From Methylophaga nitratireducenticrescens (GTDB lineage Bacteria > Pseudomonadota > Gammaproteobacteria > Nitrosococcales > Methylophagaceae): DNA of 64,000 nucleotides. Below, piece after piece: positions 23,003-64,000 of this stretch (positions are counted from its first letter, which is position 1; every line of letters starts with the position of its first letter). Position numbers and translations under genes: made by a program. The notes under the pieces are model-generated. The model ran no database searches and was not told the DNA's origin. It saw only the letters and a program-made list of their open reading frames with translations. Location: NCBI RefSeq assembly GCF_000260985.4, contig NC_017857.3, positions 2,294,001 to 2,358,000 on the forward strand, in the 5' to 3' direction.

Positions 23003-23530
23003 TTATTTCGCTTCATTTTGGTAACGTGAAACGCTGTCCACAATTTCCTGTTTGGCCGCATCAATTCCTGCCCAGCCTTCGATTTTAACCCATTTGTTCT
23101 TTTCCAAATCTTTGTAGTGTTCAAAGAAATGTGCAATCTGATTAAGCAAAAATTCCGGCACATCGTTGATGTCTTTAACATGGTCATACATTTTGTCATG
23201 AGGAACCGCAACGACTTTGGCATCTTCGCCCTTTTCATCGGTCATTTTCAGCATACCGACCGGACGGCATGCCACCACGCATCCGTTAATTAATGGAAAT
23301 GGCGTCACCACCAATACATCTACCGGGTCACCATCATCAGACAAAGTATTCGGCACATAGCCATAATTTGCCGGATAGAACATGGCTGTATTCATAAAAC
23401 GATCAACAAACAGCGCGCCAGTAGCTTTATCAACTTCATATTTAACCGGATTGGCATTTGCAGGAATTTCGATAATAACGTTGATATCTACAGGCAGATT
23501 GCTGCCTGGGCCGACTCGGTCAAGGTTCAT
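23003..23530 (-). CDS. ppa: Inorganic pyrophosphatase
   Basis: A 175-aa family I soluble pyrophosphatase. Features are [41 protein letters not shown] with the metal-binding acidic residues, and [13 protein letters not shown]. Length equals the E. coli type. The ATG has the standard MNLDRVGPG start. Its upstream side is the hairpin-rich repeat element region. Confidence 0.97.
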
Positions 23531-23617
23531 AAAGCGATTGCTCCAATAAAAAATTAGGGTAAAAAGAAACCCGCCAATTATAAAAGAAACTGCCCAAGCA
23601 TCAAAGCCGATATCTCT

Positions 23618-23639
23618 TTAGGGCTTGTTGATCTTTCAT
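23618..23639 (+). repeat. Left terminal inverted repeat of the 619-bp element
   Basis: The 22-bp arm contains agggcttgttgatctttcat. Its exact reverse complement is at 24215-24236. The match continues inward with about five mismatches over the next 14 bp. Confidence 0.92.
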
Positions 23640-24214
23640 ATCCACCACTGCTGGCGGCTATTTTTGTGTCCGACAAGGCGGAAAGCACGCAGTGTAGCCT
23701 TCCTACATAAGTGATTGACAAATGAGTCTGGAACGCATTTGAACAGCTTAGCTGGCCGCGCAGCGGTGAAATACAGGGATGTATTTCATACAACGCAGGC
23801 GGCCGCAAAAATAGTCCCAGCCCTTCGGGTTGTGACTGAAAAAGCGCCACTTATGTCCACGGATGGACAGGCCGCTATCGCTATCCCTGCTATCCCTGCT
23901 ATCGCGGCATTTGGGCATCCTTACCCACCATATGTCGGCGCGCCAGGGAGGCGCGCGCCGGTCTGCGTGGCCTACATGGATGTAGGTCAGGGGCGTGAGC
24001 AGGATACGGAAGCTTTGCTCGTCACTTATTTAGAATTACTACAAAAACGTCCGGACAAGCAATGTTCCAGACATTGCTTTTGCATACACTCCATCCATGG
24101 AGATAAACGTTTTTGAGCGCAAGCCCCCTTTGGGGTGAGATACATGGATGTATCTCACAAAAGGCGCTCCTCGTGCCTTGATTGACGCTTTTTCAGCTCA
24201 CAACAGAGGCGGAG

Positions 24215-24236
24215 ATGAAAGATCAACAAGCCCTAA
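24215..24236 (-). repeat. Right terminal inverted repeat of the 619-bp element
   Basis: Exact reverse complement of 23618-23639. It ends 2 bp before the stop codon of the TauE-family gene at 24239. Confidence 0.92.
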
Positions 24237-24238
24237 CA

Positions 24239-25048
24239 TTATCGACTGAAAAAATACGCGGCAACACAAATCAGTAATAGCGAAAAAAGGCGGCGCAACC
24301 AAACTGCAGGTAGTTGCTTCGCCAGTCGTGCACCAAACTGGGCAAAAATCACACTGGTCAGGATAATACCGAGAAATGCCTGCCAATGTACGAAGCCAGT
24401 TTGCCAGGCAGATTGCTGATTTATTTCACTGGGGGCAAACACAATGAAGCCAATCACACCGGCAATGGCGATGGGCAAACCACAACATGCAGCGGATCCA
24501 ATCGCCTGTTGAATGTTAAGACGAGCTATCAGCAGATAAGGGACAATCAATGTTCCTCCACCGATACCGACTAGCGCCGAAAAAGCACCACTAAACAAAC
24601 CATATAAACTCGAAGGCAATCGGTTTAATAATGCAGGAGATGATGCTCTGGCATTTGGTAGCCAAATACGTAATGCCATTAACAAGGCAAAGATGGCAAA
24701 GACTATCTGCAACAAATCACCGCTGATCAAACTGGCCAGCAGAGCTCCGCCAAAACTGCCGATGAGTAATCCTGGGACCAACCGGGTAACCACCAACATC
24801 GAAATATTTCCCAGTCGCCAATGCGCAAAGATAGAAGACATTGATGTTACAACAATGGTCATCAGTGAAGTGGCAACCGCCATATGGATAAGATATTGAT
24901 CCGGCAGCCCTTGTTTGCTGAAAAGCCATACCAGCACCGGTACAATTACCAGTCCCCCGCCGATACCAAACAGCCCGGCAAGCGTACCGGCCACCATTCC
25001 GGCTGCGGCATAACTTAACCATTCAATCCACATCAGCTTCACATCCAT
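24239..25048 (-). CDS. TauE/SafE-family sulfite exporter-like membrane protein
   Basis: A 269-aa multi-pass inner-membrane protein with two homologous halves. Each half begins with a Gly-rich motif: GTLAGLFGIGGGLVIVPVL near residue 21 and GAFSALVGIGGGTLIVPYL near residue 155. The family exports sulfite, organosulfonates or related anions, but the substrate cannot be told from sequence. A second start, ATG 25033 (MWIEWLSY), is equally plausible. It is divergent from the MATE gene. The 3' end abuts the repeat element but the protein looks full length. Confidence 0.9.
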   Translation of the reverse strand: MDVKLMWIEWLSYAAAGMVAGTLAGLFGIGGGLVIVPVLVWLFSKQGLPDQYLIHMAVATSLMTIVVTSMSSIFAHWRLGNISMLVVTRLVPGLLIGSFGGALLASLISGDLLQIVFAIFALLMALRIWLPNARASSPALLNRLPSSLYGLFSGAFSALVGIGGGTLIVPYLLIARLNIQQAIGSAACCGLPIAIAGVIGFIVFAPSEINQQSAWQTGFVHWQAFLGIILTSVIFAQFGARLAKQLPAVWLRRLFSLLLICVAAYFFSR

Positions 25049-63955: not shown

Positions 63956-64000
63956 ATAGATCAAGTTCTATGAAAGATTTATTTTTTGGCACATCAAATA

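Follow-up and report, generated by a model that had tools for sequence, protein, structure and literature searches.

A Methylophaga MITE with CsrA-site-like hairpins, some of them common to the trailers of rRNA operons

The window analysed here is a stretch of 64,000 nucleotides from a Methylophaga genome (G000; 3.135 Mb in one contig), in which a 619-bp palindromic element lies between the gene for an inorganic pyrophosphatase and that for a TauE/SafE-type exporter (Table 1). The first-pass annotation had taken it for an inverted-repeat element, and its two ends do pair with one another as that description demands. When folded as RNA, both strands are far more stable than shuffled sequence (z-scores of −9.5 and −9.4; 20 shuffles each). 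Only short ORFs are found inside the element, which has no transposase of its own; two of these, lying wholly or mostly within it (23578–23850 on the minus strand and 23715–24116 on the plus strand; 90 and 133 aa, respectively), are probably chance frames. A scan of 23531–24300 gave no promoter-like site within the element and a single one (0.8 expected) outside it, at 23577–23604, and no terminator-like site (1.1 expected). The Rfam scan of the element returned chance-level matches only, and a tRNA scan across the window found no tRNA.

The element is rich in hairpins that present GGA in the loop. Counting perfect stems of at least six pairs with loops of 4–5 nt, GGA occupies the loop, on one strand, in all six hairpins of the element vs 4 of 51 elsewhere in the window (Fisher p = 5.8 × 10−6), and with stems of at least five pairs in 7 of 8 vs 14 of 157 (Fisher p = 1.5 × 10−6), both p-values being after the fact because the element had been singled out for its GGA loops. 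The five plus-strand stems with GGA in the loop that had been reported (hairpins d, f, i, j and p) and the two on the minus strand (m and n) are all present; three imperfect hairpins (b, h and that at 24162–24178) were additionally read by eye from the letters. The GGA hairpins are confirmed as a real feature, for which chance is no explanation. Within hairpin d, ATACAGGGATGT at 23771–23782 agrees at every position with the CsrA SELEX consensus RUACARGGAUGU, as printed in PMC7652899, and hairpin p is one position off it; the first-pass annotation, which had called the hairpin at 23768–23787 identical to the consensus and that at 24135–24158 one base different, was correct on both counts. The SELEX ligands mostly have no more than four contiguous pairs (PMC7652899); the stems of the element, with 5–10 pairs, are longer than most of them, and several of its pentaloops have C instead of A two bases before the GGA. 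On the resemblance of their loops to this consensus, the hairpins are predicted to bind CsrA.

Table 1. Features of the element and its flanks (window positions)
Feature	Position	Strand	Remarks
Inorganic pyrophosphatase gene (PF00719), flank	23003-23530	-	
Left terminal inverted repeat	23618-23653	+	36 nt, 89% complementary to right end
Core hairpin without GGA (TGTAG-CCTTC-CTACA)	23693-23707		Internal control for loop change
GGA hairpin b (CAAATGAGT-CTGGA-ACGCATTTG, one mismatch)	23719-23741	+	Optional insert 1; GGA kept 29/30
GGA hairpin d (TGAAATACA-GGGA, perfect)	23767-23788	+	GGA kept in 22/24 instances
GGA hairpin f (TGTCCA-CGGA, perfect)	23854-23869	+	Optional insert 2; GGA kept 24/25
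GGA hairpin h (one mismatch in window copy)	23913-23926	-	GGA kept 6/7
GGA hairpin i (GCGCGCC-AGGGA, perfect)	23938-23956	+	GGA kept 22/22
GGA hairpin j (CCTACA-TGGA, perfect)	23971-23986	+	GGA kept 28/28
Hairpin l, opened by insert with hairpins m and n	24041-24115		Arms 24042-24050 and 24107-24115
GGA hairpin m (AAGCAATGT-CTGGA, perfect)	24057-24079	-	GGA kept 27/28
GGA hairpin n (CTCCA-TGGA, perfect)	24089-24102	-	GGA kept 26/27
GGA hairpin p (GTGAGATACA-TGGA, perfect)	24135-24158	+	GGA kept 43/47
Weaker GGA hairpin (AGGCAC-GAGGA, one G-T pair)	24162-24178	-	Core part; in 4/14 core-length copies
Right terminal inverted repeat	24201-24236	-	36 nt, pairs with left end
TauE/SafE-type sulfite exporter gene (PF01925), flank	24239-25048	-	Gene end adjoins element

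Blast gave 141 pieces of the element in G000, and its ends, allowing up to three mismatches, were matched 126 times, vs none for a reversed-pattern control. The stretches fetched around these matches contain 51 copies with paired ends: 14 are shorter than 150 bp, 18 measure 150–280 bp and 19 are longer; TA stands at both outer edges in 25, and 21 hold recognised GGA hairpins, 74 altogether. A transposase gene (DUF4096, DDE_Tnp_1) at 466051–466809 sits beside a left end with one mismatch (at 465959), the right end next to it being diverged; its assignment to the IS4/5 type comes from the Pfam names. The many copies, the matching ends and this candidate transposase support the earlier suggestion of a mobile element of MITE type, and we consider the element to be a MITE moved by a candidate IS4/5-type transposase. 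REP/RAYT elements combine a GTAG tag with a RAYT transposase; that identity was set aside on the size of the element, its TA edges and the IS4/5-type gene. One end pair (L092), 794 bp apart, was rejected as a copy, its two ends being unrelated. A second, two-frame transposase family of the same type occupies six places in G000 (2851250–2851974 and 1492681–1493405 are examples), several of them closely similar copies.

The 20-base end of the element matches many Methylophaga records. No transposase ORF was evident beside its single-ended matches in Colwellia, Shewanella sp. KJ10-1, Pseudoalteromonas and Thalassotalea, as judged by eye over ~1 kb at each match (a Methylophaga locus, L168, was also examined in this way). 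In Rheinheimera oceanensis, there is a complete small IS (L183, 1885–2764), whose ends differ from the MITE end by four mismatches and whose 253-aa DDE transposase is 65% identical to the Methylophaga gene. The intergenic site of the window element was compared across genomes at 24 loci, six of which (L331–L336) were read, the other 18 having a weak exporter flank or none. A close relative, G017, with a 96% identical flank, keeps only a 58-bp remnant of the element; the G021 copy is ~300 bp long, includes a run of N and has insert 1; in G016, G020 and G018 there is no element, the exact join being unproven there because of divergence in the flanks.

The copies are modular in make-up. The core of the MITE, of ~266 bp, is palindromic and nearly symmetrical, and the longer copies have inserts at at least three places. 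Most insert hairpins have a GGA loop, those seen to lack one being CAGC-TTA-GCTG and CCCC-loop-GGGG. The 11 main GGA hairpin types sit in these optional inserts, and all 14 copies of core length (260–270 bp) in G000 are devoid of them. Across 103 unique copies from G000 and its relatives, there are 22 distinct perfect hairpins with GGA (91 instances) and 16 distinct ones without (37 instances, 23 of these on the core stem ATGTAG); the hairpin type at 24162–24178 has perfect stems twice among the unique copies. The simpler view offered at first pass, that palindromes merely happen to contain GGA, is at odds with the number of distinct stems, with their place in inserts that core-length copies lack, and with the occurrence of like hairpins, showing compensatory stem changes, in the trailers of rRNA operons (see below).

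Over the 11 GGA hairpin types, the GGA is kept in the loop, to within one base, in 251 of 264 instances. Per site, variation amounts to 18/792 for the GGA, 33/264 for the base just before it and 165/4172 for the stems, and the loops of two core hairpins vary at 134/571 sites in the same count. Gapped, N-bearing and <70% identical matches were excluded from it, as were copies sharing a 40-nt context; hairpin o (loop CTTT) had no accepted instance, and the search set took in two trailers (L062 and L069) and loci L120, L216 and L217. Omitting these five loci and counting only changes seen in one copy, we find 9/765 for the GGA, 12/255 for the base before it, 73/4042 for the stems and 67/3294 for the flanks: variation of the GGA is below that of the preceding base (p = 0.0015) and not clearly below that of the stems (p = 0.29) or the flanks (p = 0.14), on a measure that is rough, the variable core loops having given 1/571. 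Since the copies are related, p-values for the first of these two counts are not probabilities of independent events. That one-copy changes do not affect the GGA clearly more slowly than stems or flanks suggests that the GGA loops in the MITE copies are an inherited design.

Among pairs that are Watson–Crick in the reference (13 hairpin types, including two core controls and the trailers L062 and L069), single changes break the pair in 94 cases and convert it to G–U in 49, and two-sided changes keep it in 22 and break it in four; a further 36 stem cells are non-pairs in the reference and pair in another copy. Taken together, stem changes among the copies look more like decay than upkeep. The refuting outcome named at first pass, copies that do not conserve the GGA loops, was not observed; in the stems, breaks outnumber the two-sided changes that keep a pair. 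Such decay is what would be expected of a plain MITE, in which the hairpins are DNA palindromes and the loop GGA is a chance inheritance spread by copying, and the same account would be comfortable with recent changes that strike GGA and flanks about equally, with MITE hairpins that show no sense bias (see below) and with a close relative in which this site has lost the array. It is less comfortable with GGA loops in 22 distinct, unrelated stems, and with a neighbouring base that changes more freely than the GGA itself; moreover, the same loop rule operates in the rRNA trailer units, there with compensatory stems and a sense bias. We regard a plain MITE as unlikely.

The first-pass annotation also envisaged a dispersed regulatory layer, in which transcribed copies of the element titrate CsrA. 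A csrA gene, for a protein of 61 aa, is present in G000, and Rfam models for CsrB, RsmY and RsmZ gave no match there (CsrB was seen in E. coli as a control; RsmY and RsmZ had no above-cut-off control). A genome of this kind, with 74 GGA hairpins in 21 copies and GGA kept throughout most instances, might have MITE copies under selection as an active, mobile sponge. Relative to the flanking ORFs, however, the GGA hairpins number 45 in sense and 76 in antisense orientation, and sense hairpins predominate in 13 hairpin clusters and antisense ones in 21, with two tied (p = 0.23), in a test confined to strand counts, with ORF-based gene calls, on the 36 of 91 clusters whose two flanking ORFs run in one direction. 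Of the nine recognised loops of the window element, read-through would display the three on the minus strand, because both neighbours run in that direction. Against selected sponges there also stand the GGA, which changes no more slowly than the flanks to any clear extent, the array, which is full, partial, a remnant or absent at one site in six genomes, and the element, which has no promoter-like site inside it. A layer of MITE sponges is thus quite improbable, and the copies look like mainly passive carriers; a copy that lies downstream of a promoter could present extra predicted CsrA decoy sites. What survives of the first-pass interpretation is a MITE with CsrA-like loops in its inserts that are not incidental.

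Two of the places that match the element (L062 and L069) are behind rRNA operons, with 5S and 23S confirmed, and one of them is only 241 bases past the right end of the window. Trailers with tandem TLR-like units and sense GGA hairpins were observed at 2358199–2358793 of contig C1 of G000 (L300) and at 2897739–2898333 (L277), the former starting just beyond window position 64000. The order within a trailer unit is a hairpin with a CNGGA loop, a spacer, a second GGA-loop hairpin and AAAGTAGGTCA, as in the 3' region of 5S, and there are terminators. In L277, the one trailer examined for such repeats, 27 nt of the 5S end, AAAGTAGGTCACTGCCAGGCTTTAATA, recur in one downstream unit and a shorter piece in another; this agrees with the definition of a TLR (PMC8144298), in which 18–19 bp from the 3' end of the preceding stable RNA gene are repeated. 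Within 700 nt, the 11 distinct trailers that have 5S in view contain 33 hairpins, of which 20 have a sense GGA loop, three an antisense one and 10 none, the sense excess having p = 0.0005 for hairpins that are not independent. GGA hairpins of any kind occur in six of the 11 trailers and are missing from five, in a set that leans towards trailers of this kind because its loci had been selected for their similarity to the G000 trailer. The trailers of 29 other gammaproteobacterial genomes (600 nt each, with two stretches of <100 nt) contain 42 hairpins, three with sense GGA, five with antisense GGA and 34 without; the proportion with GGA is thus 23 of 33 in Methylophaga vs 8 of 42 (p = 1.4 × 10−5). 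On the latter count, a general rule that gammaproteobacterial rRNA trailers carry GGA hairpins was rejected.

The trailer hairpin that precedes AAAGTAGGTCA shows covariation among 23 units from the genus, with the GGA nearly fixed: GGA is present in 22 of the 23 rows, and the stem changes on both sides. The alignment was built without structure from units chosen by AAAGTAGGTCA as anchor; it retains 23 of 31 rows, the eight left out being a duplicate and seven rows that were chance matches or the left arm on the opposite strand, and 15 of its units are from loci where a 5S gene was seen and eight from loci with no clear 5S in reach. In it, 90.7% of cells are paired, vs 62.3% when shuffled and 27–39% when slid, and 65 cells have two-sided changes, vs 19.5 when shuffled; the numbers of pairs with two-sided change and of further pair types did not exceed those of the shuffles.

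Part of the MITE is homologous to these trailers. The stretch 24041–24115 matches the L277 and L300 trailers at 88% identity over 75 bp and that at L278 at 83%, 5S being in view at all of them, and stretches of up to 24041–24163 are 76–78% identical over 114–126 bp to units at L279, L281 and L283, which have the same end repeat and no clear 5S in reach. This homology argues that at least one MITE insert and the trailer units share ancestry. At E ≤ 0.01, the matches of the element to trailers cover positions 424–546 of its 619, plus one weak piece at 142–182, and no clear counterpart in the trailers was seen for hairpins b, d, f, h, i and j; AAAGTAGGTCA is found on neither strand of the element, where only GTAGGTCA occurs, and the window element is not itself a TLR by the definition given above. 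Trailer units are also present in G002, G005, G014 and G022, species with 0–2 matches to the window element, which suggests, without proving it, that the trailers are the older home of the units. The direction of hairpin transfer between trailers and MITE is, to this extent, something that we infer. In genome G029, a decayed copy of 24041–24115 directly follows a tRNA gene (L120, 1384–1576), as E. coli TLRs do.

A genome from another family of the same class, G048, has ten matches (L258–L267), at 93–95% identity, to 23962–24017, the 56 bp that contain hairpin j. They lie in a different small, MITE-like repeat, whose ends resemble TAACTACTCAG in 7 of 10 cases and CTGAGCAGTTAC in 9 of 10. GGA loops are seen in 17 of 22 hairpins inside the repeat vs 14 of 51 outside; the loci were found through the shared hairpin, which accounts for nine of the 17, and leaving it out gives 8 of 13 vs 14 of 51 (p = 0.046). 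From these counts, and on weaker evidence than for the Methylophaga element, GGA hairpins appear to recur in another element. In one of the G048 hairpins, the stems differ between copies and ATGGA stays. That such loops act as DNA rather than RNA, being recognised in single-stranded or extruded form in replication, in transposition or by a nucleoid protein, might be argued from the GGA loops on both strands, the extreme palindromes that these elements form and the GGA loops of the G048 repeat, but is very unlikely in view of the sense bias in the rRNA trailers and of the base before the GGA, which need not keep the palindrome.

We return to the MITE with CsrA-site-like inserts, and advance the following scheme with moderate confidence, lowered slightly by the fact that the longest trailer homology is to units with no 5S in view. 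An IS4/5-type transposase would move the MITE, the palindromic core of which, ~266 bp long, would have taken up hairpin-rich inserts; the loops of the insert hairpins are predicted to be sites of CsrA/RsmA type, and at least one insert shares ancestry with the TLR-like units found in the 3' trailers of rRNA operons in Methylophaga. The trailer hairpins would be read out with the rRNA, by transcription past the first terminator, and would probably bind CsrA; being both read out with rRNA and bound by CsrA, they would titrate CsrA in step with rRNA synthesis. The trailer RNA is a better candidate for function than the MITE copies, and the RNA units behind Methylophaga rRNA operons are a candidate for growth-rate-coupled titration of CsrA outside the Enterobacteriales. 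Transposons carry such hairpins with them, and the decoy sites of a global regulator could spread by that route. A bolder version, to which we attach little credence, would have the transposon family take CsrA-binding hairpins from the trailers and scatter them as mobile decoys, with unrelated repeats in another gammaproteobacterial family doing likewise; if true, such decoys would give each genome its own tunable, dispersed buffer for CsrA.

Several known systems invite comparison. Like the sponge RNAs CsrB/CsrC and RsmX/Y/Z, the element has an array of GGA loops matching the CsrA consensus; it differs from them in having neither a promoter-like nor a terminator-like site, and in carrying GGA on both strands. 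The TwoAYGGAY RNA (RF01731), which is proposed to bind CsrA (PMC4333381), likewise has hairpins with AYGGAY loops; its Rfam model gave no match in the region of the window element and, at one of two places scanned in G048, a match of 42.6 bits, vs a cut-off of 43, some 0.5 kb from the shared repeat. QMITE1 and QMITE2 of Coxiella are MITEs of about 50 copies, a number similar to that found here, and give rise to small RNAs; CsrA, RsmA and GGA have no occurrence in the main text of the article (PMC5896051). sRNAs from MITEs are also mentioned in a review of MITEs, in the available text of which Csr and Rsm have no occurrence (PMC10969869), and among the matches listed for openly licensed PMC papers there was neither a MITE with CsrA sites nor Methylophaga trailers of the present kind. 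A similar arrangement is that of RrA, RrB and RrF of E. coli, TLR-type RNAs located downstream of 5S and between terminators, which repeat the 5S 3' end and have GGA in loops (two of five GGA being in hairpin loops); RrB binds CsrA in gel shifts, and removal of RrA/B/F has modest effects, as described in PMC8144298. The Methylophaga trailers similarly follow 5S, repeat its end and present GGA loops, whereas they differ from the E. coli RNAs in holding several units and more GGA hairpins, and in having related hairpins that also reside within a transposon.
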